A stretch of DNA of 64,000 nucleotides, taken from Saprospiraceae bacterium. GTDB taxonomy: Bacteria > Bacteroidota > Bacteroidia > Chitinophagales > Saprospiraceae. Below are positions 41,534 through 63,030 of the stretch, in pieces (within the stretch, counting starts at the first letter, position 1; each line of letters opens with the position of its first letter). Under the pieces are notes generated by a model that saw only the letters and a list, made by a program, of their open reading frames with translations, had not been told where the DNA came from and did no database searches. The position numbers were made by a program, and so were the translations under genes. The stretch lies in contig JARGNR010000024.1 of NCBI GenBank assembly GCA_029212405.1, positions 1 through 64,000 on the forward strand. The letters run 5' to 3'.

Positions 41534-42286
41534 ATGTTAAGGACAATAATCATAGATGACGAGCGAAGCAGTTTAGAATCATTAGAATTTGAATTGACAA
41601 ATTACTGTGATGATGTAACCGTTGTGGCCAAATATAATGATCCACTTTTAGCCATTAATGAAATACACAAACACACTCCCGATCTTCTATTTTTAGACAT
41701 TGAAATGCCTGGTTTGAATGGTTTTGAATTCTTGCAAAAACTGGACAATCGGAATTTTGATGTTGTGTTTGTGACCGCCTACGATCAGTTTGCGATTCGT
41801 GCTTTTGAGTTTAATGCGATAGGGTATATTATGAAACCTGTGCGAAAAAATAAATTAATTCAAGCAGTCAATAAGGTTCGTTCGAACAGGGATCACCAAT
41901 TTGACAATCAAAAACTATCGGCTTTAATTCAAAATATTCATGTTCAGGGAGCTGGACAACTGGATCGAGTAGCACTTCCCACGGGTGAGGGGTATTCATT
42001 GGTTAAAGTGGATGACATCACCTACTTGCAAGCGGAAAGCAATTATACTTGGGTATTTATAGCTGATGGGAGTAAGTATTTGGTGGCCAAAACATTAAAA
42101 GATGTCACAACTTTGATAAATAGAACCCAGTTTTTTAGAGCCCATAAAAGCTACTTTGTCAACCTCAATCATGTTCAGCGGTATATACGAGGTCAAGGAG
42201 GGTATCTGGTGATGGTCTCAGGAGAACAAATACCAGTTTCGCGGTCCCAAAGAAATGATTTATTAATCAAGTTGCAAGGCATCTAA
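41534..42286 (+). CDS. LytTR-family response regulator
   Basis: 250 residues. The receiver domain has the acidic pocket IIIDDE, phospho-acceptor Asp55 in LLFLDIEMPG, and the conserved Thr/Lys positions VTAYD and IMKPV. The LytTR DNA-binding domain spans about 140-248 (DRVALPTGEGYSLVKVDDI, YLQAESNYTWVF, FFRAHKSYFVNLNHV). LytTR proteins bind direct repeats upstream of their target genes. It is translated 23 bases after the cognate sensor kinase and almost certainly in the same operon. The secreted fibre-like and BNR proteins that follow on the same strand are candidate targets, as inference from position only. Confidence 0.94.
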   Translation: MLRTIIIDDERSSLESLEFELTNYCDDVTVVAKYNDPLLAINEIHKHTPDLLFLDIEMPGLNGFEFLQKLDNRNFDVVFVTAYDQFAIRAFEFNAIGYIMKPVRKNKLIQAVNKVRSNRDHQFDNQKLSALIQNIHVQGAGQLDRVALPTGEGYSLVKVDDITYLQAESNYTWVFIADGSKYLVAKTLKDVTTLINRTQFFRAHKSYFVNLNHVQRYIRGQGGYLVMVSGEQIPVSRSQRNDLLIKLQGI

Positions 42287-50926: not shown

Positions 50927-51064
50927 CTCCTTAATTCATTAAGCTACATTTTTTGCATTAGAATTAGAATTGCTTGTCATTTGAAACACTAAAACTGAGG
51001 ATGTTAATTTGGACTATCTAACTATTTATTATATTGAATACGACTAAACTAAATACTTTATATC

Positions 51065-51967
51065 ATGAAAAACTTTTTAATCTACCTTTTTATTTTTTTA
51101 TCCACTTACTCATTCGCACAAGAATATCCAAAAATGGTTGTCGAAGGGGCAACATGGATGTATATTGAAAAACAAGGGGGACCTCCTGATTTTTTTGCCT
51201 ATCATATAAAAGGCGATACCATAATAAATGGTTTGACCTATTCTATTTTGAATGATCAAGAAGTAGAGTTGGATTCTTTTGGATTTTTAAATTTGACCTC
51301 TTCGGGATCTCCAGCAGCTTTTATGAGAGAAGATACAACAACAAAACAGGTGTTTGCAATAATTGAGGATGAGAGTATTCTAGAATTTGGAATTGATCAA
51401 TTTGAGTTTTCATATGGGCCAGGCGCTTTTGAAGGGGAATATTTGTTATACGATTTTGGAAAAGAGGAAGGAGAGACATTGAATAATCCAGCATCATTTT
51501 TCATATCAGAAATTATTGAGGATGAAATGTTTGGGTATGATGTCCGAAAATTTAAACTGACACAAGCACAACCTGTTTATGAGATCTTTGGAGATGAAAA
51601 TGGGTTATTTTTTCCACATCAATTATTTTTTAATGGTGGAGCAGGGATTGATCTTGTTCAATATTGTGTGACCAATAACTATGAATGCTCAGTTTTTATT
51701 GAGACGAATTCTGTTCATGATTTGTTGAGTTCGGATTTTGTAGTTTATCCAAACCCAACAACTGAATATATTAGTATAAATGTACCTAAAGAGAAAATTC
51801 AGACCTTGAATTTTTTTGCACTTGATGGAAGATTATTGTTGGCGGTAAATCGTATAGATGCACATCATATTGATATCGATTTGAATACAATAGATTATAA
51901 TGGACCTATACAGATTGTAGGATCTACCGATAAATCAAAGTTTTCTTGTAGAGTTTTAAAATTTTGA
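51065..51967 (+). CDS. Secreted protein with T9SS type A sorting domain
   Basis: 300 residues. Signal peptide 1-18 (ending YSFAQ). The central ~200 residues (ATWMYIEKQGG, HIKGDTIINGLTYSILND) form a domain seen in many Bacteroidota secreted proteins, with no recognised activity. The C-terminal ~75 residues are a type A T9SS sorting domain (DFVVYPNPTTEYISINV, LNFFALDGRLLLAV, ending SCRVLKF). It is predicted to be exported across the outer membrane. It is a single gene, convergent with the sigma/CHAT locus. Function unknown. Confidence 0.85.
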   Translation: MKNFLIYLFIFLSTYSFAQEYPKMVVEGATWMYIEKQGGPPDFFAYHIKGDTIINGLTYSILNDQEVELDSFGFLNLTSSGSPAAFMREDTTTKQVFAIIEDESILEFGIDQFEFSYGPGAFEGEYLLYDFGKEEGETLNNPASFFISEIIEDEMFGYDVRKFKLTQAQPVYEIFGDENGLFFPHQLFFNGGAGIDLVQYCVTNNYECSVFIETNSVHDLLSSDFVVYPNPTTEYISINVPKEKIQTLNFFALDGRLLLAVNRIDAHHIDIDLNTIDYNGPIQIVGSTDKSKFSCRVLKF

Positions 51968-52008
51968 TCTCAACAGCAAAATAGAAAACCAGCAAAAGTT
52001 TAGACATG

Positions 52009-52039
52009 AAAAAATCCCCTTGATCCGAAGACCAAGGGG
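52009..52039 (-). terminator. Terminator hairpin with UUCG loop, copy 1
   Basis: The RNA stem CCCCUUGGUC / GAUCAAGGGG (one G-U pair) closes a UUCG tetraloop (52026-52029) and is followed by A and U6 (52009-52015). It is the 3' end of the element. Confidence 0.85.
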
Positions 52040-52078
52040 GTACATTGCTGTGCTGATAGCAATAATACTTACCTCGTT
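52034..52078 (-). repeat. 45-base identical repeat, copy 1 (partner at 58254-58298)
   Basis: All 45 bases are identical to 58254-58298. The GTAAGTATTATT stretch (minus strand, 52072-52061) is complementary to leader sequences of three secreted-protein genes at 57.8, 61.0 and 62.9 kb. Confidence 0.95.
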
Positions 52079-52148
52079 GGTGATGATATTAACACTCATG
52101 ACACTCACACCATATTAAAAGGGTAAATATTTTAGGCTAAATAAGCTG

Positions 52149-52778
52149 TCATAGTCTATTTAGCAAGGATACTGACTCATCGTGATGGTCGGCCGAAGGG
52201 TCTACGGCTAATTCGGTCAATAAATTTTTTGCTTCTTTATATTTTTTAGTTTTTAATAATAGTAGTGCTTTGTACCATTTGGCGTGATCAGTAAAATAGT
52301 AATCATTGAGATCAATAATCTGATCAAAATAGAGTGTGGAGATCTCAAATTTATCAATCTCTAAAGCCCCAATTCCAGCGAGTAAAAGTAAATCAATGTC
52401 ACCACCATTTGCTAGTGGTTGAACAATATTGAGGGCAGTTGTATAGTCTTTACTTCTATAAGCTGTCAGAAATGATACAAGGTCTGATCCTAAGGCATCT
52501 TGATTGCATCTTGATTGTATAGAAGGTGTATATTCCTCAAAATAATTGTCATATAGAGATGTCTTAGACATCCAAGGCCATCCAAAGAAAGTATTATTAT
52601 TAAAGAGGATGGAAATCGTACTTACTAGAAGTCCTAGTAATAGAATCCAAAAAGTAGTTTTAAAACAGGTGTTCACCTTCTTTGAAACAGTAGATTCTAC
52701 ACTACAAATTTGCTTTATAGTCTGACAGAGATTATTATCTTGGTGTGACTCAAATGCAATAGTAAAATCTACATTCAT
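52149..52778 (-). CDS. Membrane TPR protein, N-terminally shortened paralogue of the anti-sigma-like protein
   Basis: 209 residues. One membrane helix at about 42-59 (FWILLLGLLVSTISILF) and a C-terminal TPR-like domain of ~110 residues (FLTAYRSKDYTTALNIVQPL, HAKWYKALLLLKTKKYKEAK, ADHHDESVSLLNRL). The C-terminal half closely matches the 249-residue protein at 58375-59124. The ~40 residues before the helix align with residues ~49-80 of that protein (FESHQDNNLCQTI against FDFNQDQDLRSIL), so the first ~48 residues, the presumed sigma-binding part, are missing. The TPR part should lie in the periplasm. It could be a decoy or a second partner of the CHAT protein encoded upstream. Function unproven. 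Confidence 0.8.
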   Translation of the reverse strand: MNVDFTIAFESHQDNNLCQTIKQICSVESTVSKKVNTCFKTTFWILLLGLLVSTISILFNNNTFFGWPWMSKTSLYDNYFEEYTPSIQSRCNQDALGSDLVSFLTAYRSKDYTTALNIVQPLANGGDIDLLLLAGIGALEIDKFEISTLYFDQIIDLNDYYFTDHAKWYKALLLLKTKKYKEAKNLLTELAVDPSADHHDESVSLLNRL

Positions 52779-53019
52779 CTAAATTTTATTTGTGATGATT
52801 AAAAATTAGTACATGAATAGAGTTGGTTGATTTTGATCAAATGTAAATCTCAAAATCTATCATCGAGTTCTATTTTCGGAGAGATTAAAAATTAAAAAAT
52901 CTTTTTCCAACCGAACGTACATATCTGAATACCTTGAAAGAATAAAAAGTAATCTAAGAAATTACCTTTTCTTTAAATATACTTTTAGAAGTACGTATAG
53001 TAGTCAGAATAAGAGGAAG

Positions 53020-55875
53020 TTATGTCCTCTTTTTTTTATTTCGTACAATAATAAAAATTATAAATAATGTGGCGAATAATAGGATGAATACAAGTGAGGT
53101 ATAATTAGAAAAATCAATTGGGTTGTCATTGCCAATGTGAATCAAAGCAGCCCAATAATAAGGGTGTGATCGTAGTTTATCCGCTTTTTTAAGGTAGTCT
53201 AATTTTGAGAGTCTTAGGGCCTCAGATTTAGATTTTCCCTTTTTTAAATGATGATACATCCCAGTCACAATTTCTGAAGAAGAGTAGTCATCTATAGACC
53301 ATAGACTTGATTGCAAACCTTTTACTCCAGCCTCAAAAAATCCTCTTGAAAGTCCAATAACTCCTTCACCGTCCTGAATTAATCCAGATGCAGTATTACA
53401 AGCACTCAGAACAACGAGTTCTGGTCTAGAATTGAGATTTTGAATATCGTAATTCGTCAACGCTCCATCAGAAAAATATATTTGACTCAGCATTGGGTCT
53501 TCTTCATTGAGGCAGGCATGAGTTGCCAAGTGAACGATTTGATGACTTGAAAAATTCTGTTTTAGGTTTTCTCTATTGGCTTGATCATTATCCAAGAAGG
53601 TACCTTTAAATTGTTCTTTTAGAAAGTCGAATTCTTTTTGGGTATTAGGCAAGTCTCCAAGTACTTGATAATTACAGCTCCGTTGGTCCGTGGACAGTCC
53701 TGAGAATGCTGGTGTCAAACAGAGTACAGTAGGGTTGGAAAGGTGCACTTCACTTTGATTTTTAAAGTATTGATTCGCCGAATAATTATAAGAAACGGTA
53801 CTGGATTCAAGCACCATATTTTCAGCATCAACATTTAAGGCATCAAATGGGACTTTATTGAGAATTCCATCAGGAATAATTATGATTTTTGATGGATGAG
53901 CTTGATAATTAGAATTGTCAGTAATTAGTAGCTTTCCTAATGTATTGGATAAATCAAAAAGTCTTGTATTCCTTCCTCCAGGTTTTTGTGAAATGGCTAG
54001 ATAAAATTCTGAAACATCTTCCAATAATCTTTGTAAAGGAATTGTTCGGACAACTACCTCATTTGCGCTGATAGAAAGTACATACAATTCATTTTCCGTT
54101 TGAAAATACTCTAATAAGAGATGATCTGCTTGTAGTGTTTGTTGAATCTTTTGGTAGGTAACTTGCGTAGATAGTGAATTTTTGAAGGCATAGAATTCAG
54201 GATAATTTGTTTCTAGTTTTTGTTCATAAAGTGTCAACGAATTTTGAAGTTCGAAAAGTTTATTTTTAATGGATGCAAGATTTTCAGCATTTTGCTCGAC
54301 TTTCTGTGATTCTTCAGCTACAAGTTTGGAATAAAATGAGATGTTATTGCGAATATCTATTCCTTGATTTACTAATGAATCTGGAAGTGAAGAAGAAAGT
54401 AAAATATATTTAGTGCTTACATTTTGAAAAAGAATTTCAGCTTTATTTTTCTCAATGATATTAAACATATTTTCTAATACAGAAGCATCGTTTGACGTTA
54501 CATATGCTGAATAATTTGCGTTCAACGCATCTTCATATACAGTGGAGGCAATTTCAGCGACTTTATATTTTGACCCTTCATTTAAGAAATCAGTTTTCAT
54601 CTTATCCAAAAGGTCAATTGCTGTATTAAAGGCAGCGATACTTGAATTCAGTACATTGGAGTCGTTGTTTTCGTCATAAAGCGTGTAGAGCGTATTTGCT
54701 TTTTTAGCCAACAGCTGTAAGGATTGAGTCCCTTGAGAAATCTTTGAAATATCAGGATTGTCAGAAAAATTTTCACTCAAGTTCCCATCAAAATATCGAA
54801 GTCCATTTTGATATTCTTGTAGTGCGTTTTCTAGTTCATTTTTTGCCACATAGTAATCACCATAGATCATATAAATTCGAGCTTGCTCAGGATGTGTGCG
54901 ATTTCCTTTATACTGTTCGTTGACATGTTCCAATGCAAGCTTTATGATCGTATCTGTTGACGGAATAGTATTACTCTTTAATGCAAGAGACATGGATAAC
55001 TCATAAAATCTAAATCGATTGAAGCTTTCATTTTTGACTAGAGGTTCCAAAAGATTTAATGATTTTCTAGCATTTTCAAAATCGCGTTGAAAAAGATACA
55101 CGTCTACCATTCTGCCTAAACAATTAATTCGAGAACGGATCCCATCCTTTTCGTTATATTGCTTAGATTTTTCTAAATAAGTAAGACTTTCTGAATAGTC
55201 TTTAATGGCCAAATCATATTCTTTCAAATCTTTGTACATCAAGCCTCTAATCTGAAGCGCTCTGAACATTCTATTGTTTTTATCTCTTTTTTTTGTAAAC
55301 AATGAATCTGGAGCGTTTTTGAATAAATCAAATGACTTTGTGGAGTATAATATGGTATTTTCAGAATCTCCAAACACTCTAAAACCTGCCGCTAATTCAA
55401 GATAGGAAATTCCCATTTGAACATCATTGGCACCATTATTTAATTCGAGTTCAATATATTGTTTATTGATTTTATTGGCTTCTATCAGATTACCTTTTTG
55501 CCTTTGTACATCTTGCATTAATTGATAGGCTGTTATAACATCATTCATGTATAAGCCAGATGTATCTTGAGCAATTTGAAATGCTGCTTCAATGGCCTCA
55601 AAAGATTCGATTTGTTTACCTAGAGCACCATTGTAATGACTGAGGTAAATATTGGAGAATAATTCAACATCTCGATTTCCTTCAACGATTGCTAAGGAGT
55701 TTAACCGTTGAAACATTGAAAGCATACCTTTTTCATCCGGAAATTCTTTTATCCCAAAAATACTATCCCTTAGAGCAATTGCTTCAGAGTTTTGTGATTG
55801 AATGGAGACCGTAAAGAAAAGTGATATAAGTAGTATAAACCCATATCTATATGTTATTTGTTGCGGCGTTTTCAT
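53020..55875 (-). CDS. TPR-CHAT protein, predicted periplasmic caspase-like protease anchored by a C-terminal membrane helix
   Basis: 951 residues. Signal peptide about 1-28. Residues ~30-500 are TPR-type helical repeats (LIEANKINKQYIELEL, YDLAIKDYSESLTYLEKSK, NELENALQEYQNGLRYF), followed by a helical linker. The CHAT domain spans about 650-910: HQIVHLATHACLNEEDP with catalytic His786 and LVVLSACNTASGLIQDGEG with catalytic Cys826, then GVIGLSRGFFEAGVKGLQSSLW. A membrane helix at 927-944 and a basic end (NKKKRT) imply that the protease faces the periplasm. CHAT proteins are caspase/separase-fold cysteine proteases; TPR-CHAT forms are known effector proteases. Its substrates may be the neighbouring anti-sigma-type membrane proteins or the secreted paralogues, as inference from context. 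Confidence 0.9.
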   Translation of the reverse strand: MKTPQQITYRYGFILLISLFFTVSIQSQNSEAIALRDSIFGIKEFPDEKGMLSMFQRLNSLAIVEGNRDVELFSNIYLSHYNGALGKQIESFEAIEAAFQIAQDTSGLYMNDVITAYQLMQDVQRQKGNLIEANKINKQYIELELNNGANDVQMGISYLELAAGFRVFGDSENTILYSTKSFDLFKNAPDSLFTKKRDKNNRMFRALQIRGLMYKDLKEYDLAIKDYSESLTYLEKSKQYNEKDGIRSRINCLGRMVDVYLFQRDFENARKSLNLLEPLVKNESFNRFRFYELSMSLALKSNTIPSTDTIIKLALEHVNEQYKGNRTHPEQARIYMIYGDYYVAKNELENALQEYQNGLRYFDGNLSENFSDNPDISKISQGTQSLQLLAKKANTLYTLYDENNDSNVLNSSIAAFNTAIDLLDKMKTDFLNEGSKYKVAEIASTVYEDALNANYSAYVTSNDASVLENMFNIIEKNKAEILFQNVSTKYILLSSSLPDSLVNQGIDIRNNISFYSKLVAEESQKVEQNAENLASIKNKLFELQNSLTLYEQKLETNYPEFYAFKNSLSTQVTYQKIQQTLQADHLLLEYFQTENELYVLSISANEVVVRTIPLQRLLEDVSEFYLAISQKPGGRNTRLFDLSNTLGKLLITDNSNYQAHPSKIIIIPDGILNKVPFDALNVDAENMVLESSTVSYNYSANQYFKNQSEVHLSNPTVLCLTPAFSGLSTDQRSCNYQVLGDLPNTQKEFDFLKEQFKGTFLDNDQANRENLKQNFSSHQIVHLATHACLNEEDPMLSQIYFSDGALTNYDIQNLNSRPELVVLSACNTASGLIQDGEGVIGLSRGFFEAGVKGLQSSLWSIDDYSSSEIVTGMYHHLKKGKSKSEALRLSKLDYLKKADKLRSHPYYWAALIHIGNDNPIDFSNYTSLVFILLFATLFIIFIIVRNKKKRT

Positions 55876-56018
55876 ATATAAAATTAATGAAAATTAATTG
55901 GAGTAAAATTCCATATCGGATTTAATAGTTGGTATTCATTGAAAATCTATTTGTTTTCATTTTAAATATAAAATGATTGCACTCACGCAAAGATGAATGC
56001 AATCATAAAATATAATTC

Positions 56019-56810
56019 TTAGTGTTTATAAATTTTGAACGTTTTAATTTGTCCCTCTTCTACATATCGAACAAAGTAAATACCATTTTGGATTACTAAA
56101 TTTGAAATGTAATTTTGTATTGGAATTGTAGAATCTACATTTTTCAAAACTTTAATTTGATTTCCATGCAGGTCATAGAGGATATAATCTAAATATTTGA
56201 GATCACTGTTGGATTCTTTTTTTTCAAATTCGATGTTTCGTGTTGAATTCTCGGAATCTAGATTTGATTTCAATCCACCACCATTATTACTCCCGTCATT
56301 TTGTCGTGGCGGTAGTTCCATCTGAGTTGGATCTGAATCGGGGCAACATTTTGTGATAAGTAGATCAAATAATGAACCATTGCTAAAATAATTTACATAA
56401 TTCCCATTTGCATCTTCGCATAAGATTTCAAATTGTATAGAATTAATATCTCCATTGCACATGTTATGTATTACAACACCAGGAAAAAGAATTTCAAATC
56501 TGAATAGATATTCATCTTCAGATGAGTTATAATAATAATTTGATAAAGCTATTGTTTCATAGTCTAAACCAGGGAGTTGATATCCCACATTGAGGTCACA
56601 ACCATCCATATCTGCAAGATCTTTTATTACCACATAAAATTCGACCAGACTTGCATCGCTTTCATAATTGATGTCGCAGTCGCCGTTATTCCCGCCCCCA
56701 TCTTCTTTTCGAACTTCTGGGAGGTTTTCTTGGCTAAAAGAAATTGTTGTTATGGTTAGTGTAAAAAATAGAAATAAAGATTTAAGTAATACTTGTGAAA
56801 AATTATTCAT
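56019..56810 (-). CDS. Secreted EDGGG/CC-family protein A with short T9SS-like tail
   Basis: 263 residues from the ATG at 56810; an upstream in-frame ATG at 56864 would put 18 extra residues before the signal peptide and is disfavoured because paralogues start at the later one. Signal peptide ends SFSQ, then LPEVRKEDGGGNNGDC. A ~120-residue beta-rich domain follows with GYQLPGLDYETI and KCCPDSDP. After a polar linker comes a C-terminal segment (YILYDLHGNQIKVLKN, LVIQNGIYFVRYVEEG, ending FKIYKH) that resembles the last strands of a type A T9SS domain but lacks the YPNP start. It is the second of two paralogues upstream of the CHAT gene. No known function. Confidence 0.78.
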   Translation of the reverse strand: MNNFSQVLLKSLFLFFTLTITTISFSQENLPEVRKEDGGGNNGDCDINYESDASLVEFYVVIKDLADMDGCDLNVGYQLPGLDYETIALSNYYYNSSEDEYLFRFEILFPGVVIHNMCNGDINSIQFEILCEDANGNYVNYFSNGSLFDLLITKCCPDSDPTQMELPPRQNDGSNNGGGLKSNLDSENSTRNIEFEKKESNSDLKYLDYILYDLHGNQIKVLKNVDSTIPIQNYISNLVIQNGIYFVRYVEEGQIKTFKIYKH

Positions 56811-57024
56811 GCTGCTTTTGTTATGATTAATTAAATAAGTCGTGTTGATTACATGTGTATTCAATACGTTTTTTTAAGATTGGATTGAATGGGGGCGAGG
56901 AGTATAGCCTAAATGGAATTTCTTATGGAATTATGGTGTGAAAATGGAAATCGTTTCTTCACACGGATATGAAGAAATCTACGTAGCAAAGGCATGTTGA
57001 GCCCCTGCTACGTAGAAAGAAACT

Positions 57025-57810
57025 TTAGTTTTTATATACTTTTTCTGTGTATACTTGTCCATCTTTAAAATACTTGATAAAATAGAGTCCATTTTTTATT
57101 TGTACCCCAGTAATTAGTCGTTTCAGAGAAATCCCTTTTGGTGTATTTTTCAATGCATGGATGAAATTTCCATGGATATCATAAATGTAAAAGTCATTGG
57201 ACGTTTGATCTAAATCATTTGATTTTTTTAAGCCTTGTTTTCCAAGACTGCTCGTTTCCTCAATAGATGGGTTAGTGTTTAGTTTTCCATTATCATTTGT
57301 ATGTTGCGGATGACTAGGTCCTGATGGAATGGGGACAATTTCAGGGCAACAATTACTAAGAGAAATATCAAAGGTGGTATCGTCTCCAAAAAAGTTGGAA
57401 TAGTTGCCAAATTCATCGACACATAGAATGTCTATTTGTACGGATTTTAATTTATTGCTGCACATTGCAGTAATAATATTCTCGGGGAAGGTGATTTTGA
57501 ACCCCATAATATATTTGCCTTCCTCATCGATTGTATAATCATTGTTCAGGTCTATGGTCTCATAGTTTGATGCATACAGGGCATAGCCTACAGCAAAATT
57601 GCAGTCTAAAAGATTTTGAAAATCTGTTACTACAACACTAAAATATACTGTACTATTTCCGCCTTCATTGAGGTCACATTCACCATTGTTGCCGCCACCG
57701 TCTTCTTTACGGACTTCAGGAAGCCCATTGAAGGCATATGAATTAAAGGATATTGAAAGGGTGAAGAATACGAATAGTAGTTTAAGAATAGAGGGTGATT
57801 GAAGTTTCAT
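57025..57810 (-). CDS. Secreted EDGGG/CC-family protein B with short T9SS-like tail
   Basis: 261 residues. Signal peptide about 1-27 (ending NSYAF). The mature start LPEVRKEDGGGNNGEC is almost identical to protein A. The middle domain has GYALYASNYETIDL and NCCPEIVP. The tail has FYIYDIHGNFIHALKN, VQIKNGLYFIKYFKDG and ends KVYKN. It has its own promoter (57962-57991) and a 150-base leader whose first part after the start codon region matches the leader of protein E. Together with A it is placed between the anti-sigma gene and the CHAT gene, with gaps of 140-215 bases. Predicted to be exported; function unknown. Confidence 0.78.
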   Translation of the reverse strand: MKLQSPSILKLLFVFFTLSISFNSYAFNGLPEVRKEDGGGNNGECDLNEGGNSTVYFSVVVTDFQNLLDCNFAVGYALYASNYETIDLNNDYTIDEEGKYIMGFKITFPENIITAMCSNKLKSVQIDILCVDEFGNYSNFFGDDTTFDISLSNCCPEIVPIPSGPSHPQHTNDNGKLNTNPSIEETSSLGKQGLKKSNDLDQTSNDFYIYDIHGNFIHALKNTPKGISLKRLITGVQIKNGLYFIKYFKDGQVYTEKVYKN

Positions 57811-57820
57811 AAAATTGAGT

Positions 57821-57881
57821 TTGTAAGTATTTATGCATTATTAATCATACATGAATACCCGATTAGAATAATTGGTAATCA
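57821..57881 (-). repeat. 61-base leader segment conserved with the leader of protein E
   Basis: Aligned without gaps to 62884-62944, 43 of 61 positions agree by my count. It contains AATACTTAC (57831-57823 on the minus strand), 12 bases from the ATG, complementary to the GTAAGTATT of the 3' element. Confidence 0.7.
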
Positions 57882-57961
57882 AAAAGAAAAAATTTACTGA
57901 AATTTATATGTAGAGGGTGTAATTTGATATCAATGTGAAAATAAATTTGATCTTTCTTACG

Positions 57962-57991
57962 CAAAAGTAATAGGGGAAAGAAGATTTTCAA
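57962..57991 (-). promoter_or_regulatory. Bacteroidota-type promoter of the protein B gene
   Basis: On the minus strand TTG (57991-57989), a 19-base spacer and TACTTTTG (57969-57962) match the consensus. This implies a leader of about 145 bases before the protein B start codon. The rest of 57811-58230 shows nothing else supported. Confidence 0.7.
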
Positions 57992-58230
57992 AATTTATGG
58001 ACATCTCATTGGGGACATCCTATCAAGTTAATTTAATTTTGGTTGCTATTTTAAGCAGTTCTTCGATTATTACATGCTATGATTAACTGAGATAAAAGGG
58101 TTGATAGAAATTTTAGAAATGGGATGACTATTTATTTGATTTTTAAAATGCAACGGATTTTAAGTAGTGTGACTTTGTCTATAGGAAATAGACTTGGAAA
58201 ATGTAGATAACTATTAGTGGCTTTATAAAG

Positions 58231-58259
58231 AAAACCCCTTAGCCTAGTAGACTAAGGGG
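58231..58259 (-). terminator. Terminator hairpin, copy 2
   Basis: The RNA stem CCCCUUAGUC / GGCUAAGGGG (one U-G pair) has a 5-base loop UACUA and is followed by U4. Compared with copy 1, stem pair 7 changes from G-C to A-U, pair 8 from G-U to G-C and pair 9 from U-A to U-G. Confidence 0.85.
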
Positions 58260-58298
58260 GTACATTGCTGTGCTGATAGCAATAATACTTACCTCGTT
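58254..58298 (-). repeat. 45-base identical repeat, copy 2 (partner at 52034-52078)
   Basis: Identical over 45 bases to copy 1. The AATAATACTTAC stretch (plus strand 58281-58292) gives GTAAGTATTATT in the minus-strand RNA. Confidence 0.95.
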
Positions 58299-58374
58299 TT
58301 GCGTTGACAAAACAAACTCTTGACACTCACAGCATCTAAATAGAAGGGTAAATATTTTACGCTAAATAATTCTC

Positions 58375-59124
58375 TTAAAATTTATTTAGCAATGACACTG
58401 ATTCATCGTGATGATCTGCTTTAGGGTCTTCAGCTAACTCTTTTATTAGGGCTTTTGCCGCTGTAAATTTTTCAGTTTTAATTAGCAATAATGCTTTGTA
58501 CCATTTTGCATGATCTGAATAGTAGTAATCTTGTGATTCTATTATTTGGTCAAAATAGGTAATGGATTGGGTATATTTTTCGAGCTCTAAAGCACTTATG
58601 CCCGCTAGCAACAAAGTATTATTGTCAGCATATTTTATCAAGGGCTCGATTATGGAAAGTGATTTGTCATATTCTTGATTTCTATAGGCTGTTATAAAAG
58701 AAGCCATAACAGGGTCAATGGTGATTTCATCGCTTCTTGTTTCTGAAGAAGGGCTATAGATTTCATAGTGGCTTGCATAAAGCATTGCACCATCAATGGA
58801 GTCAATAGGGTTAGAGGAATTGGTGATAAATATGAAATAAGAAGCTAGCAATACTCCTATTAAAACGGCTGCTGCTGTAAATTTATACAGACTAAATGTT
58901 CGAGTTGGAGTTTTAATTTCTTCTTGATGAATTTGGTCGAGAATACTTCTTAAGTCTTGATCTTGATTAAAGTCAAATCCTTTGATAATATCTTCTCTCA
59001 TCTGAATTTCAAGTTGTGTAGTTGGTTGCTCCATAATGTGATTTTCTAATTTTGTCTTTTCTTCTGCAGATAAGGTTCCCAAAACGGATTTGTCCATGAG
59101 TATGTCTAATTCTTCCTTGTTCAT
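58375..59124 (-). CDS. Membrane TPR protein, probable anti-sigma factor for the adjacent ECF sigma factor
   Basis: 249 residues. The cytoplasmic N-terminus (1-79) begins KEELDILMDKSVLGTLSAEEKTKLENHI, the layout of anti-sigma domains that bind ECF sigma factors. One membrane helix lies at about 80-100 (FTAAAVLIGVLLASYFIFI). The periplasmic C-terminal part holds TPR-like helices (FITAYRNQEYDKSLSIIEPL, HAKWYKALLLIKTEKFTAAK, ending SVSLLNKF). It starts 12 bases after the sigma gene, the usual sigma/anti-sigma arrangement. The C-terminal half is paralogous to the 209-residue protein at 52149-52778. It probably holds the sigma factor at the membrane until its periplasmic part receives a signal or is cleaved. 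The anti-sigma role is inferred from position and architecture. Confidence 0.82.
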   Translation of the reverse strand: MNKEELDILMDKSVLGTLSAEEKTKLENHIMEQPTTQLEIQMREDIIKGFDFNQDQDLRSILDQIHQEEIKTPTRTFSLYKFTAAAVLIGVLLASYFIFITNSSNPIDSIDGAMLYASHYEIYSPSSETRSDEITIDPVMASFITAYRNQEYDKSLSIIEPLIKYADNNTLLLAGISALELEKYTQSITYFDQIIESQDYYYSDHAKWYKALLLIKTEKFTAAKALIKELAEDPKADHHDESVSLLNKF

Positions 59125-59136
59125 AACACATATGTT

Positions 59137-59721
59137 TTAGTAACTATTCTTGAGGTTTTTATAATAGGTTTCAGAGTTATTTAAAATAGCCCTGATTTTT
59201 TTAAGGCATCTAACTTTTTGGTTCTTTGCAATTTGCTCACTTGAAAAACCTTGGGTTTCAGCAATTTTTCTCATGCTCATTTTTTCATAATAGAAAGCCT
59301 TGAGTAAATTTTTACATCGATCACCTGCTTCTCTTAATAATTTACCAATCATTTGTTGATTTTCAGTAAACTCTAGGTCCAACTGGGCGCTTCCTTGATT
59401 TGAAAAAGAATCTTTTTCATCTTCAATGGGCGAAGTAGAAATTCTATTGTCTCTAAGTTTTTTAAGCCAAAGGTTTCGAGCTATGCTATACATGTAGGTG
59501 GATAATTTACCACTGAGTTGGAAGGATTCCTTTTTCAGATTTTTGTAAAACACCACAACACTATCTTGAAAAATATCCTTAGCATCATCTTTGGTCCCGC
59601 TATTTTTTAGAATATAATTTTCAACCATGTAATAATTATTCTTATAAAGAATTTTCAAAGCTTTAGTTCCACCTTTGAGATTATTGTTCGTAAGTATAGT
59701 AACGATCTCCTGGTCAGTCAT
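59137..59721 (-). CDS. ECF-type RNA polymerase sigma factor
   Basis: 194 residues. Sigma region 2 at ~25-95 (YYMVENYILKNSGTKDDAKDIFQDSVVVFY when joined from 30 residues; core DDAKDIFQDS and STYMYSIARNLWLKKLRD). Region 4 at ~130-185 (KNLLKAFYYEKMSMRKIAETQG, SSEQIAKNQKVRCLKKI) carries the helix-turn-helix for the -35 element. There is no region 3, as expected for the ECF group. It directs RNA polymerase to a stress or envelope-type regulon. It is the first gene of a two-gene unit with the membrane TPR protein. Its promoter is not obvious in the 470 bases upstream. It may control itself and the surrounding genes. Confidence 0.93.
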   Translation of the reverse strand: MTDQEIVTILTNNNLKGGTKALKILYKNNYYMVENYILKNSGTKDDAKDIFQDSVVVFYKNLKKESFQLSGKLSTYMYSIARNLWLKKLRDNRISTSPIEDEKDSFSNQGSAQLDLEFTENQQMIGKLLREAGDRCKNLLKAFYYEKMSMRKIAETQGFSSEQIAKNQKVRCLKKIRAILNNSETYYKNLKNSY

Positions 59722-60192
59722 AAAATGAAAGATTATCGATTTTCAGCACAAAATGTATTAATAGATACCAATTAAAATCATAAAGTAATCAAAGGAAGAA
59801 AAAGTTTTAAAATGTCTATTAACCCAGAGTGATGTATCTCTCAATAGGAAAAGTAAACAGACTTACTTCGTCATATTTCTACTTTTTGATCTTTTATAAA
59901 AAGCCTCTAATGTGTGTAAAAGTAGCGATATTACTAATAAAACAAAAAGGTTTCAATGTTTGCTGCAACAACGTTGGATATTAGTACGTATATGAATCTT
60001 AATTGCTAGATTGATTCCACATTTGTCACTTTTTTCTATTTATCAATTGAAAATAGATGATTTTAATCCAAAGAACTCGATTGCTGAAAACAATATCCGT
60101 TAAATAACAGAGGCTGCCTCATAGCGAGACAGCCTCTTGTATATTTTATAATTCAATTCAGAATGACTTGAATCATTCAATTTCTCTAGAAT
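59722..60192. other. Intergenic stretch upstream of the sigma factor gene
   Basis: About 470 bases. It should contain the sigma-operon promoter, but I see no clean TTG-N17-20-TAnnTTTG. TACATTTTG on the minus strand near 59757-59749 has one base too many. The only supported element is the hairpin at 60109-60137. Confidence 0.5.
60109..60137 (-). terminator. Hairpin terminator after the protein C gene
   Basis: AGAGGCTG and CAGCCTCT arms (60109-60120 with 60126-60137, two internal mismatches) form a strong GC-rich stem about 56 bases downstream of the protein C stop codon. The following T tract is short (GTTATTT). Confidence 0.65.
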
Positions 60193-60990
60193 CTATTGTT
60201 TAAAAACTTTTTTTGTTTTTGGTGTTGTGCCTTCCATATATCTTAAAAAGTAGATGCCAGAGCGAATGTCAAGATTAGAAATATGATCTTGAATATTTTT
60301 GAGTGAAGTCAAGTTATTTAACTGAGCGACTTGATTTCCATACATATCAAAGAGGAAGTAGGTGGTTTTAGTTGGCACAATTATTTCTACTTTCTCGCTT
60401 ATTGAGTTTTCCAAATTAAAAACACTAGGAGACAAATCATCTAGCATTTTATTGTTAGAATCAATGATAATTCCTGGATCCGTGAGGAATTGTCCAGGAC
60501 AACAAAGGTAAAGTACCCATGGATCAAATGTAAATGAAGGATCTAATAACGTATAAACTCCTCCACTTAAACAATAGAGATTGACTTCAAAACTTTGACC
60601 ACCAGTGAAGGGTTGGTCATCACATAGATCCCCAAAATCGTCAGCATCTAATATTAGTTCAAAATTATATGAGAGCTCACCACTCATTAGAACTTGTGCT
60701 GTGTTAGGACTAATATACTCTGTGTCTTGTCCTGGAATAGTATATCCAAATTGAAGATTACAAGGAAGTGTCAGAGTAGAAGGAAACACTATTGAGAATT
60801 CTATTGTATAAGGTACATCATCAATGCTGAGACAGTCCGCACCATCAGTATTCCCACCATCGTCTTCAGGTATAACAATATCAGGTAAATTTGATCCACT
60901 TCTACCGCTTTGGCTAAATGAGAATGTGGTTATTGAAAAGAAAACCAGTATAAAAAATGATCTGAGTATTAAACTTGTTAAATTATTCAT
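60193..60990 (-). CDS. Secreted EDGGG/CC-family protein C with short T9SS-like tail
   Basis: 265 residues. Signal peptide 1-27 (ending FSFSQ). The mature start reads SNLPDIVIPEDDGGNTDGADC. The middle domain contains FGYTIPGQDTEYISP and LYLCCPGQFL. The tail has YFLFDMYGNQVAQLNN, LDIRSGIYFLRYMEG and ends KKVFKQ. It is the first of three members encoded upstream of the sigma gene on the same strand. Its leader holds AATAATACTTAC (61012-61001 on the minus strand), ten bases before the ATG and complementary over 12 bases to the 3' element. Exported, function unknown. Confidence 0.78.
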   Translation of the reverse strand: MNNLTSLILRSFFILVFFSITTFSFSQSGRSGSNLPDIVIPEDDGGNTDGADCLSIDDVPYTIEFSIVFPSTLTLPCNLQFGYTIPGQDTEYISPNTAQVLMSGELSYNFELILDADDFGDLCDDQPFTGGQSFEVNLYCLSGGVYTLLDPSFTFDPWVLYLCCPGQFLTDPGIIIDSNNKMLDDLSPSVFNLENSISEKVEIIVPTKTTYFLFDMYGNQVAQLNNLTSLKNIQDHISNLDIRSGIYFLRYMEGTTPKTKKVFKQ

Positions 60991-61000
60991 AGCTTGTATC

Positions 61001-61012
61001 GTAAGTATTATT
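61001..61012 (-). promoter_or_regulatory. Putative antisense target site in the protein C leader
   Basis: The leader RNA AAUAAUACUUAC, 10 bases upstream of the AUG, pairs perfectly over 12 bases with GUAAGUAUUAUU in both copies of the 3' RNA element. Confidence 0.4.
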
Positions 61013-61127
61013 TAGATAGATAATTGATCATATTTAATGAACAATTATAAAAAGTAAAGAATTGATTATGAAGAACCGTAACTAAATCTAAACTTAAGTG
61101 TTAGTCACGATTCTTTGTCCGATAAAA

Positions 61128-61925
61128 TTAATGTTTGAACACTTTCTTTGTTCTTATTTGAGTACCATCCAGATACCTGACAAAGTAAACTCCAGACTGA
61201 ATTGAAAGTCTCGCTATTACATTTTGAAGAGAAGCTTCAGATGGACTGAATTGAATTTTATCTACTTGATTACCGTACATGTCAAATAGGAAATAGGTAA
61301 CTTCTTGTTGGATAGGTGCAGTGTTATCTTCCATTAAATCACTATCCAAAGTAAAAATATCTTTATTTGTTCCAGCATTTAATCTATTATTCAAATTATC
61401 ATCGTTTCCAGGAGATGTTAAATCTGTACCACTACAGCAAAGATTAATTTCAAATGTGCCAGTAGGAATAAATTCATCATACAATACATAGTCTCCGTTG
61501 TTAGGACAATAGAAATTGTATTCAAAACTAGTCAAATCAGTATCTTTCAATTTAGCATCACACATGGCTGCTGCATCAGCAGGTGTGATTGTCAATTCAA
61601 AAAGGTAAACAATATCTCCGTTTGGAAATCCTTCTCCAGAGATTGGGCTAATGTACTCAATGTCTGAATCTGGAATCGTATATCCAAAAACAATTGGACA
61701 TACAAGAGTTTGTGTAGCATAGTTGATAGTAACAGTAAACTGAAATGTATAGTCCGATCCATTTAGTGAAATACAATCACCATGTGTGCCTCCCCCATCA
61801 TCTTCAGTTCTTACATCTGGTAAACCTGACCCTCCTCTAGGATTTTGACTAAAAGAGTAAGTGGTTACTGAAAAGAATAAAAATAAAAAGGAAAATCTTA
61901 AAATGTAGGGCGTAAAATTTATCAT
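61128..61925 (-). CDS. Secreted EDGGG/CC-family protein D with short T9SS-like tail
   Basis: 265 residues. Signal peptide 1-27 (ending YSFSQ), mature start GSGLPDVRTEDDGGGTHGDC. The middle domain has VFGYTIPDSDIEYISP, LTITPADAAAMCDAK and NLCCSGTDLTSPGNDDN. The tail has YFLFDMYGNQVDKIQF, LSIQSGVYFVRYLDG and ends KKVFKH. It is highly similar along its whole length to protein E, so the two arose by recent tandem duplication. Unlike C and E its leader has no AATACTTAC site. Predicted to be secreted, function unknown. Confidence 0.8.
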   Translation of the reverse strand: MINFTPYILRFSFLFLFFSVTTYSFSQNPRGGSGLPDVRTEDDGGGTHGDCISLNGSDYTFQFTVTINYATQTLVCPIVFGYTIPDSDIEYISPISGEGFPNGDIVYLFELTITPADAAAMCDAKLKDTDLTSFEYNFYCPNNGDYVLYDEFIPTGTFEINLCCSGTDLTSPGNDDNLNNRLNAGTNKDIFTLDSDLMEDNTAPIQQEVTYFLFDMYGNQVDKIQFSPSEASLQNVIARLSIQSGVYFVRYLDGTQIRTKKVFKH

Positions 61926-62072
61926 AAGTTTTAATTTTTAAGGATACATTAAATCTGTGTTATTGTGATTATTGCTCCTGTTGAATGAGTAGTAAATAAG
62001 TTGAAAAAATGTATTAGAAATCGAGGCTACTTATTTTTAGAAATAGTAGTCCCGATTCCGTATTTGATTAAA

Positions 62073-62873
62073 TTAATGTTTGAAAACCTTTTGTGTTCTT
62101 ATTTGAGTACCGTCCAAATACCTGACAAAGTAGACTCCAGACCGAATTGAAAGCCTCGCTATTATGTTTTGAATAGAAGTCCCAGTAGAATTATTTTGAA
62201 ATTTGTCTACTTGATTACCGTACATGTCATATAGATAATAGGTAATTGCTTGTTGATTTGTAATTTGATCTTCTTCAATTGAATGGATATCAAGCGTAAA
62301 TACATCTGTTATTGTACCAGAATTCAATCTATTATTCAAATTGTCATCATTGCCAGAAGAAGTCAAATCTTCATCGCTGCAGCATAAATTAACACCAAAA
62401 ATGCCATTGGGTATAAATGGATCATATAATTCATAGTCTCCATTATTTGCACAATAAAAGTTGTATTCAAAAGTTGTTGGATCTTCATCTTTTAATCTAG
62501 CAGCACACATGGCTGCAGCATCTGCAGGTGTGATTGTCAATTCAAAATTGTAAACAACGTCTCCGTTGGCATATGCTTGGCCATAAATTGGATTGAGGTA
62601 TTGGATGTCTGATCCAGGAATGGTGTATCCAAAAACTATGGGACAGACCTGAGTTTGATTGGTATAGTTTATAGTAACTGTAAATTCTAAAGTGTAGTCC
62701 GATCCGTTTAATGTAATACAATCACTATGAGAACCACCTCCATCGTCTTCAGTTCTGTTAACATCAGGTAAATTTGACCCACCTCTACCATTTTGGCCAA
62801 ATGAATAGGCTGCTAAAGAAAAGAATAAAAATAAAAAGGAAATTCTAAGAATGTAAGGCGTAAAATTTGTCAT
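62073..62873 (-). CDS. Secreted EDGGG/CC-family protein E with short T9SS-like tail
   Basis: 266 residues from the ATG at 62873, chosen because its start aligns with protein D (MTNFTPYILR against MINFTPYILR); an in-frame ATG at 62915 would add 14 residues and lie within the conserved leader. Signal peptide ends YSFGQ, then GSNLPDVNRTEDDGGGSHSDC. The middle domain has FGYTIPGSDIQYLNP, LTITPADAAAMCAAR and NLCCSDEDLTSSGNDD. The tail has YYLYDMYGNQVDKFQN, LSIRSGVYFVRYLDG and ends QKVFKH. Its promoter (63031-63061) and leader are well formed. It is probably the first gene of the C-D-E cluster. Function unknown. Confidence 0.8.
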   Translation of the reverse strand: MTNFTPYILRISFLFLFFSLAAYSFGQNGRGGSNLPDVNRTEDDGGGSHSDCITLNGSDYTLEFTVTINYTNQTQVCPIVFGYTIPGSDIQYLNPIYGQAYANGDVVYNFELTITPADAAAMCAARLKDEDPTTFEYNFYCANNGDYELYDPFIPNGIFGVNLCCSDEDLTSSGNDDNLNNRLNSGTITDVFTLDIHSIEEDQITNQQAITYYLYDMYGNQVDKFQNNSTGTSIQNIIARLSIRSGVYFVRYLDGTQIRTQKVFKH

Positions 62874-62883
62874 ATGTATTAGG

Positions 62884-62944
62884 TTGTAAGTATTAATGCA
62901 TAAAATGTCAAGCATGTATACCTATTTGTACAATATGGTAATCA
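62884..62944 (-). repeat. 61-base leader segment conserved with the leader of protein B
   Basis: It aligns without gaps to 57821-57881 (43 of 61 identical by my count). It contains TAATACTTAC (62895-62886 on the minus strand), 12 bases before the ATG, complementary over 10 bases to the 3' element. Confidence 0.7.
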
Positions 62945-63030
62945 CTCAGAATAAAAAAATACTAAACCAAAATCAATAAAAAGTGTCAAATTGGCTCTAG
63001 CTCGTGTTTATATTCAATTTTACCGTGCAT

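Follow-up and report, generated by a model that had tools for sequence, protein, structure and literature searches.

Small regulatory RNAs (sRNAs) such as CpxQ and CarZ derive from the 3' ends of mRNAs, and MicA, RybB and MicL are sRNAs of the noncoding arm of the sigma-E response. To our knowledge, sRNAs with defined targets are few in Bacteroidota. The DNA analyzed here is a stretch of 64,000 nucleotides (nt) from a Saprospiraceae bacterium (assembly GCA_029212405.1, contig JARGNR010000024.1, positions 1 to 64,000), referred to below as the window. It encodes an operon for an extracytoplasmic function (ECF) sigma factor and an anti-sigma-like protein, a second anti-sigma-like gene and five related secreted proteins, A to E. 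An element in the 3' untranslated region (3' UTR) of the operon, repeated behind the second anti-sigma-like gene, carries a short seed whose complement stands in the leaders of B, C and E. We consider it likely that the element gives a trans-acting sRNA which pairs with the leaders of secreted genes of the same module, probably repressing their translation. This reading is preferred because the element is conserved, the complementarity is found in four genomes and one compensatory change is seen. The stronger support for the pairing comes from the other genomes rather than from the window.

Closest Described Systems

sRNAs derived from 3' UTRs are well known (reviewed in PMC9438474), and OppZ is one formed from the 3' end of an mRNA (PMC7398697). 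The element described here resembles them in lying in a 3' UTR, in sharing the terminator of the mRNA, in its short conserved seed and in having translation start regions as putative targets. It differs from those of the review in its parent transcript, a sigma/anti-sigma-like operon of Bacteroidota, and in being known from sequence alone; a word search of this review returned neither 'anti-sigma' nor 'Bacteroid'.

In Fusobacterium, FoxI and FoxJ make up a noncoding arm of the sigma-E response, and FoxJ had earlier been annotated as the 5' UTR of another gene (PMC11005410). The present locus is similar to sigma-E noncoding arms in that an ECF sigma factor probably controls an sRNA directed against mRNAs of envelope or secreted proteins. 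Unlike FoxJ, the RNA would be the tail of the sigma/anti-sigma-like operon itself, and its predicted targets are secreted proteins of the same module.

The Bacteroides sRNAs GibS (PMC7366714), called intergenic, and BatR (PMC10861873) pair around start codons. They share with the present element the phylum and the pairing near start codons, a likeness of description. The BatR seed is reported to be partly occluded in the full-length RNA and to open on processing (PMC10861873), which resembles the lock predicted here and sets a precedent within the phylum. Another sRNA of B. thetaiotaomicron, BTnc353, may act on a sigma/anti-sigma pair (PMC10861873). That relation is the opposite of the one proposed here, in which the sRNA would come from such an operon.

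In the Type III-E CRISPR system with Csx29, Csx30 and CASP-sigma, a TPR-CHAT protease adjoins an ECF sigma factor and its inhibitor (PMC10028731). The gene order of the window suggests that the same three components stand together here. Of the Craspase features, only the CHAT domain was found, by a Pfam scan; no search for CRISPR parts was made. A literature search found no sRNA described for Saprospiraceae, and the titles and abstract openings surveyed in the open literature gave no sRNA from the tail of a Bacteroidota sigma/anti-sigma operon acting on secreted proteins of the same module. What would be new is a sigma-linked 3'-UTR sRNA within a TPR-CHAT sigma module of Bacteroidota; 3'-UTR-derived and sigma-dependent sRNAs are already known.

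Complementarity between the Element and the Leaders of B, C and E

According to the original prediction, the RNA of the 3' element would pair over 12 nt with the leader of C, 10 nt with that of E and 9 nt with that of B, each time 10–12 bases upstream of the AUG. The coordinates and lengths proved exact, and the measured spacers are 10 nt (C), 12 nt (E) and 12 nt (B). The start of E was set by hand at 62873, rather than at the longest-frame ATG at 62915, before counting.

The three leaders stood out among 350 leaders of the same genome when these were compared with a 46-nt query, the 45-nt block shared by both element copies plus one further base from copy 2. The longest contiguous complement placed C first (12 nt), E second (10 nt) and B joint third with one other leader (9 nt). 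By predicted duplex energy with the 20-nt core, E was second, B third and C seventh. This energy was equaled by none of 1000 shuffled leaders for B, by 4 of 1000 for E and by 11 of 1000 for C. With the 14-nt seed, complements as good arose in 4 (C), 20 (E) and 65 (B) of 5000 shuffles, versus 3990 for A and 218 for D. In the leader of D (window positions 61926–61975), GCAATAAT stands over 40 nt ahead of the ATG and complements the 3' half of the seed over 8 nt; it is this stretch that 218 of 5000 shuffles equal.

The 9-mer AATACTTAC, which constitutes the B site, occurs six times in the window, compared with a mean of 0.86 after shuffling, and six sites were reached in 0 of 100 shuffles. These six are the three leaders, the two element copies and one site within an open reading frame (ORF) at 42072. 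Genome-wide (6.8 Mb) there is no enrichment, with 124 sites against 145 for a reversed-pattern control. The arrangement AATACTTAC-N7..15-ATG was found at 20 sites in a scan of the whole genome (control, 13), and B, C and E are the only ones in which that ATG opens a frame of 60 codons or longer. A fourth such start (L040) was discarded, its 501-codon frame staying open 39 nt further upstream. That 9-mer (G000:C205:3810-3818; L040, L077) lies in the signal-peptide codons of a 514-aa gene beside a CHAT gene, at another sigma/anti-sigma-like locus of the same genome, possibly by chance. Outside the window, 96 sites (16 + 80) were read individually, 22 of the 124 being left out. Of the set of 80, 33 sites lie within ORFs in the sense direction and 23 in the antisense direction, and 24 are outside both classes.

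Conservation of the Element and Its Predicted Pairing in Related Genomes

Both element copies of the window sit in the 3' UTR of an mRNA and end at an intrinsic terminator. A 45-nt block is identical between them, while the proteins encoded upstream are 43% identical. Comparison of the two terminator stems shows a single two-sided change, A-U to G-C, beside one-sided changes at two pairs, G-C to G-U and U-G to U-A. No Rfam family among 4227 matched at the gathering score in the 64 kb.

A BLAST search of 60 relatives with the 139-nt element found nothing convincing beyond the own genome, the best match having E 2.2e-4 over 38 nt. A strict element pattern matched the own genome alone among 398 genomes of the family, and a relaxed pattern matched 16 of the 398. 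Twelve of these 16 matches look coding, in open frames of at least 112 codons, and were set aside; within about 1.5 kb of these 12 there was no relative of the sigma, anti-sigma-like or CHAT genes (best E 0.4). The anti-sigma-like protein was also traced through the 398 family genomes, and the 3' UTRs of the closer orthologs were inspected. The orthologs reached in this way disproved that the element is specific to one genome. It follows the orthologous gene in three other Saprospiraceae metagenome-assembled genomes (MAGs), named here G250 (CALLPN010000013), G296 (CALBEE010000176) and G263 (JAHDHU010000020). Five elements are present in the four genomes, that of the window included, and the seed, not merely the stem, is conserved across genera. 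The G250 and G296 elements read UGUAAGUAUUAUUGCU, followed by a different 9-base loop, AGCAAU and a long stem that lacks a clear U run, and that of G263 reads UGUAUGUAUUAUUGC, with a short hairpin and an intrinsic terminator.

In all four genomes with the element, a secreted gene of the same module carries a complement of the seed. The G296 site was predicted from the seed beforehand, as AATACTTAC in the leader, and then found. The secreted gene of this genome is off the sigma-gene contig and was located with the G250 protein on another contig, with a 929-aa ORF behind it. Its leader contains AATAATACTTACA, 13 nt complementary to its own element core, and the 12-nt seed complement ends 19 nt before the ATG; this start, the ATG homologous to that of G250 and not that of the longest frame, was set by hand before counting. 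In G250, where the secreted gene lies beside the sigma gene, AAUGAUACUUACA pairs with the element over 13 positions including one G-U, and CUUAC ends 21 nt upstream of the ATG.

The compensatory change is found in G263 (GUAUGUAUU/AAUACAUAC), in which A>U in the seed is matched by U>A in the leader. The secreted leader of this MAG carries UAAUACAUAC 17 nt before the ATG, giving 10 contiguous pairs with its own seed versus 6 with the window seed. TAATACATAC occurs twice in the 19 kb around the locus, opposite the element itself and in the secreted leader. By contiguous complement, the secreted leaders ranked 2nd of 151 (G250), 1st of 157 (G296) and 1st of 220 (G263) among sampled leaders of their own genomes; by energy, the ranks were 1, 2 and 15, respectively. 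G199 (JAHDGJ010000007), of the same genus as G263, has the ortholog with a 3' UTR lacking the element, and its secreted leader lacks the site. A diverged pair in G199, 3' UTR UUUAAGUAGUAAAG and leader UUACUAUU, was rejected as no better than shuffles (116/500 with 110 nt of the UTR and 441/1000 with a chosen 25-nt piece).

The five members A–E form a family that finds full-length matches only in its own genome among the 398. A protein query with B gave no relatives in 119 genomes except A–E themselves. In a profile search with A–E over the 398 genomes, with six candidates scored per genome, matches in other genomes at E ≤ 0.01 were confined to the C-terminal tail and a few short stretches of the N-terminal or middle part, and no relative was confirmed on contigs of other genomes. 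Covariation was therefore not traceable via secreted-protein queries.

Probable Promoter Motif Upstream of the Module Genes

A probable ECF promoter, GATTAC-N16-GTAT, precedes B, E, the sigma gene and the second anti-sigma-like gene in the window, with no match for C, D or A. It also precedes the secreted genes of G263, G296 and G199 and the sigma gene of G263. Deviating forms are GATTACC with GGAATA at the G250 secreted gene, AATTAC at the G250 sigma gene and a 17-base spacer at the G199 sigma gene, and no match was found before the G296 sigma gene. Allowing spacers of 13–16, 400 kb of the own genome gave 7 matches (4 of them before an ORF), versus 4 in the window, all within 10 kb. The distance from the motif end to the ATG is 43–48 nt in B, the sigma gene, G263, G199 and G296, and 44 nt in E. 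Since the motif stands upstream of the sites of B, E and the secreted genes of the relatives, these sites fall in a probable transcribed leader. The pairing site should therefore lie inside the transcribed leader, where the small ribosomal subunit binds. The motif is common to genes with and without a pairing site.

Proposed Mechanism and Alternative Explanations

The sigma factor, once released from its inhibitor, would transcribe its own operon and the secreted genes; from GATTAC-N16-GTAT promoters, its control would cover the operon, the second anti-sigma-like gene and, among the secreted genes, B and E at the least. The terminator-proximal RNA may be released from the mRNA or transcribed as a small RNA, the tail acting whole or cut. 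Such an sRNA would consist of a 12–14 nt seed, a short hairpin and the intrinsic terminator, and its seed would pair with the 5' leaders of the B, C and E mRNAs immediately upstream of the start codon. A duplex at −11 to −22 would occlude the ribosome and repress translation, repression being the default guess because the leaders are weakly folded. The circuit would then work as an incoherent feed-forward brake on secreted-protein synthesis, with the two tail copies as sibling regulators.

Directly after both anti-sigma-like stop codons, a conserved block was found, TTATTTAGC-N-TAAAATATTTACCCTT. It contains AAUAUUUACC, complementary to the seed part GGUAAGUAUU with one G-U, and this pairing is a possible internal lock on the seed. 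For an RNA of the window copies shortened to begin immediately ahead of the seed, seed bases one to four are predicted mostly open (0.61–1.00), part of the seed still being held in the hairpin stem. A further-reaching proposal, tentative and in our opinion doubtful, is a self-contained sigma switch. Here, the operon tail would be a processing-gated sRNA whose seed is locked by the conserved, target-like post-stop block and freed on cleavage, and which restrains the sigma-induced secreted substrates of a TPR-CHAT protease pathway, with seed and target co-evolving across genera even after unlinking.

Several observations weigh against an sRNA that represses the secreted genes. In the window, the leaders of A and D, of the same secreted family, have no site, and the upstream regions of B and E are homologous over about 70 bp. 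Since B and E share this homologous promoter-leader, the three hits are not three independent events. Among the relatives there is one compensatory change, not several. The G263 duplex, in which it occurs, is weak by energy (−10.9 kcal/mol, rank 15 of 220): among 1000 shuffled leaders, 119 do equally well, and five other leaders, those of E, G296, D, B and G250, are predicted to form a stronger duplex with the G263 seed than its own target does. G250 offers no more than 8–9 contiguous complementary nt, extended by a G-U, and a complement of at least 8 also arose in 462 of 5000 shuffles. Folding predictions for the window copies have the seed mostly paired within the full 3' UTR, largely with the post-stop block; for G250, they have its 5' part paired in the shortened RNA as well. 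Across 41 loci of the wider module, complements of at least 10 occurred in 14 of 481 cognate 3' UTR–leader pairs versus 345 of 19,187 non-cognate ones. Since this is barely an enrichment, pairing is not a general feature of such loci, and a general rule for sigma/anti-sigma-like/CHAT loci was ruled out.

The 9-mer also abuts starts elsewhere. Allowing GTG and TTG and distances from 0, the 96 individually read sites include four that lie 0–4 nt before a plausible start of unrelated genes: L243 (2 nt), L282 (4 nt), L300 (1 nt) and L273 (0 nt, GTG). Two more sites are less convincing, those at L287 (39 nt) and L248 (20 nt, doubtful GTG). A leader-composition model for the genome expects 0.3 sites at 0–4 nt and 0.5 at 7–15 nt, and the observed numbers exceed both; of the seven sites found at 0–15 nt, three belong to the five-gene secreted family. 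The original prediction had named a 9-mer equally common before unrelated genes as the outcome that would tell against it. For the most part this is not so, the real starts at 7–15 nt being those of B, C and E alone, and the part that did not hold is an absolute concentration in the family. L243, L273, L282 and L300 lie on contigs C36, C109, C121 and C146, and by eye L300 and L273 look secreted. These genes may be extra trans targets, or AATACTTAC may be favored near starts for another reason.

The last point bears on the view that AATACTTAC is a DNA, promoter or general leader motif, inherited in B and E, to which the 3' UTR is complementary by coincidence. The shared 70 bp of B and E would fit this, as would the distance of 10–12 nt to the ATG if the motif were a leaderless −10 box. 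That role was rejected, GATTAC-N16-GTAT being a better promoter candidate and present in genes with and without the site. Moreover, C has the longest complement of the window yet lacks the upstream motif, the double change in G263 and the G296 target on another contig would be unexpected, and complements of this length are rare among the sampled leaders, which makes a motif a very improbable explanation. Still further down we place a 3' element that is only a terminator or mRNA-stability element in cis, with complementarity by chance. The element does end in an intrinsic terminator, the 41-locus comparison shows no broad enrichment and short matches are frequent in AT-rich leaders; against it stand a seed conserved across genera beyond the stem, and its match to the cognate secreted leader in four of four genomes with the element.

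Real pairing could also have another outcome. Activation of translation or protection of the leader, instead of repression, is in our judgment unlikely. The direction is unreadable from the sequence, and a sigma-dependent activating sRNA, FoxJ, is on record (PMC11005410). On the other hand, the leaders are predicted to fold weakly (B −4.3, E −1.2 and G263 −4.7 kcal/mol), leaving little inhibitory structure to open. In addition, the site occupies the region ahead of the start codon to which the 30S subunit attaches. The action might instead be reversed, with the secreted leaders working on the tail of the sigma/anti-sigma mRNA, as a sponge or through its stability, in a feedback on the regulator. 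A complement is symmetrical and silent on which RNA acts, the operon mRNA includes the element as far as the terminator, and the conserved upstream block is predicted to lock the seed in the full 3' UTR of the window. One regulator site facing several leaders with sites just before the AUG is nevertheless the usual layout of an sRNA with several mRNA targets, and the hairpin that follows the seed is seen again in the relatives, so reversed action appears quite unlikely. A tail-derived sRNA acting on the secreted leaders is retained as the preferred reading.

Organization of the Locus and Encoded Proteins

The features are collected in Table 1. The cluster lies on the minus strand and reads, from right to left, E, D, C; ECF sigma; anti-sigma-like; element 1; B, A; TPR-CHAT; second anti-sigma-like; element 2.

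Table 1. Genes, promoters, elements and target sites in the window.
Feature	Position	Strand	Remarks
E promoter (probable ECF)	62918..62943	-	GATTAC-N16-GTAT
Secreted protein E	62073..62873	-	type IX secretion tail
E target site, TAATACTTAC	62886..62895	-	10 nt (13/14 with one mismatch), 12 nt before ATG 62873
Secreted protein D	61128..61925	-	no target site
C target site, AATAATACTTAC	61001..61012	-	12-nt complement, 10 nt before ATG
Secreted protein C	60193..60990	-	type IX secretion tail
Sigma gene promoter (probable ECF)	59765..59790	-	auto-regulation
ECF sigma factor gene	59137..59721	-	TIGR02937, E 1.7e-19
Anti-sigma-like gene	58375..59124	-	N-terminal helices, one predicted membrane-length helix, C-terminal TPR
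Element 1	58232..58374	-	3' UTR of sigma/anti-sigma-like operon, stop codon to terminator
Conserved block past stop codon, copy 1	58344..58371	-	contains AAUAUUUACC
Seed of element 1, GUAAGUAUUAUU	58281..58292	-	one base aside, invariant in 5 elements of 4 genomes
Hairpin adjoining seed 1, UUGCU-AUCAGCAC-AGCAA	58265..58282	-	loop differs in other genomes
Intrinsic terminator of element 1	58231..58259	-	stem CCCCUUAGUC/GGCUAAGGGG, then U run
B promoter (probable ECF)	57855..57880	-	
B target site, AATACTTAC	57823..57831	-	9-nt complement, 12 nt before ATG 57810
Secreted protein B	57025..57810	-	type IX secretion tail slightly under cut-off
Secreted protein A	56019..56810	-	no target site
TPR-CHAT protease gene	53020..55875	-	PF12770, E 2.2e-52
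Promoter (probable ECF) of second anti-sigma-like gene	52929..52954	-	150 nt before the gene
Second anti-sigma-like gene	52149..52778	-	without N-terminal 40 residues
Element 2	52012..52148	-	3' UTR of second anti-sigma-like gene
Conserved block past stop codon, copy 2	52119..52145	-	
Seed of element 2	52061..52072	-	identical to element 1 seed
Hairpin of element 2	52045..52062	-	
Intrinsic terminator of element 2	52010..52039	-	

By eye, proteins A–E have a signal-peptide-like start and a type IX secretion tail. E and C exceed the cut-off of TIGR04183 (NCBIfam) and B falls slightly short; in the Pfam scan, the only one run for A and D, all five remained under the cut-off. The predicted structure of B had a pLDDT of 54.5 and was left unused.

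For the anti-sigma-like protein of the operon, helices were predicted at residues 3–68, a membrane-length helix at 79–102 and TPR-like helices at 138–248. TPR proteins predominate among its best fold matches in the PDB, none of which reaches E ≤ 0.001, and Pfam and NCBIfam yielded TPR-type matches under the cut-off only. The single PADLOC match, a weak one (E 3.8e-4), links the TPR part with a CARF model. The second anti-sigma-like protein presumably lost the sigma-binding part with its N-terminal 40 residues. Despite this loss, its gene retains the element and the GATTAC-N16-GTAT motif, and it is perhaps kept for its RNA, or as a TPR decoy.

The sigma, anti-sigma-like and CHAT genes co-occur in most of the first 20 loci fetched, with a recurrent gene order and often a secreted-looking ORF between or beside them; 5 of these 20 loci are elsewhere in the own genome. 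The five closest named loci are from Saprospiraceae MAGs, the same family as the window genome. An ECF sigma factor, a membrane anti-sigma-like TPR protein and a TPR-CHAT protease thus appear as a recurrent Saprospiraceae module (window 51000–63000; L076–L095, L171–L182), often with at least one secreted-looking protein and, in some genomes, in several copies.

Significance

The putative regulator, its candidate targets and a naturally occurring compensatory change can all be read from the sequence, which makes the pairing directly testable. If the proposal is true, sigma/anti-sigma operons can carry their own post-transcriptional brake. The locus would also offer a way into the TPR-CHAT/ECF-sigma modules found repeatedly in Saprospiraceae.

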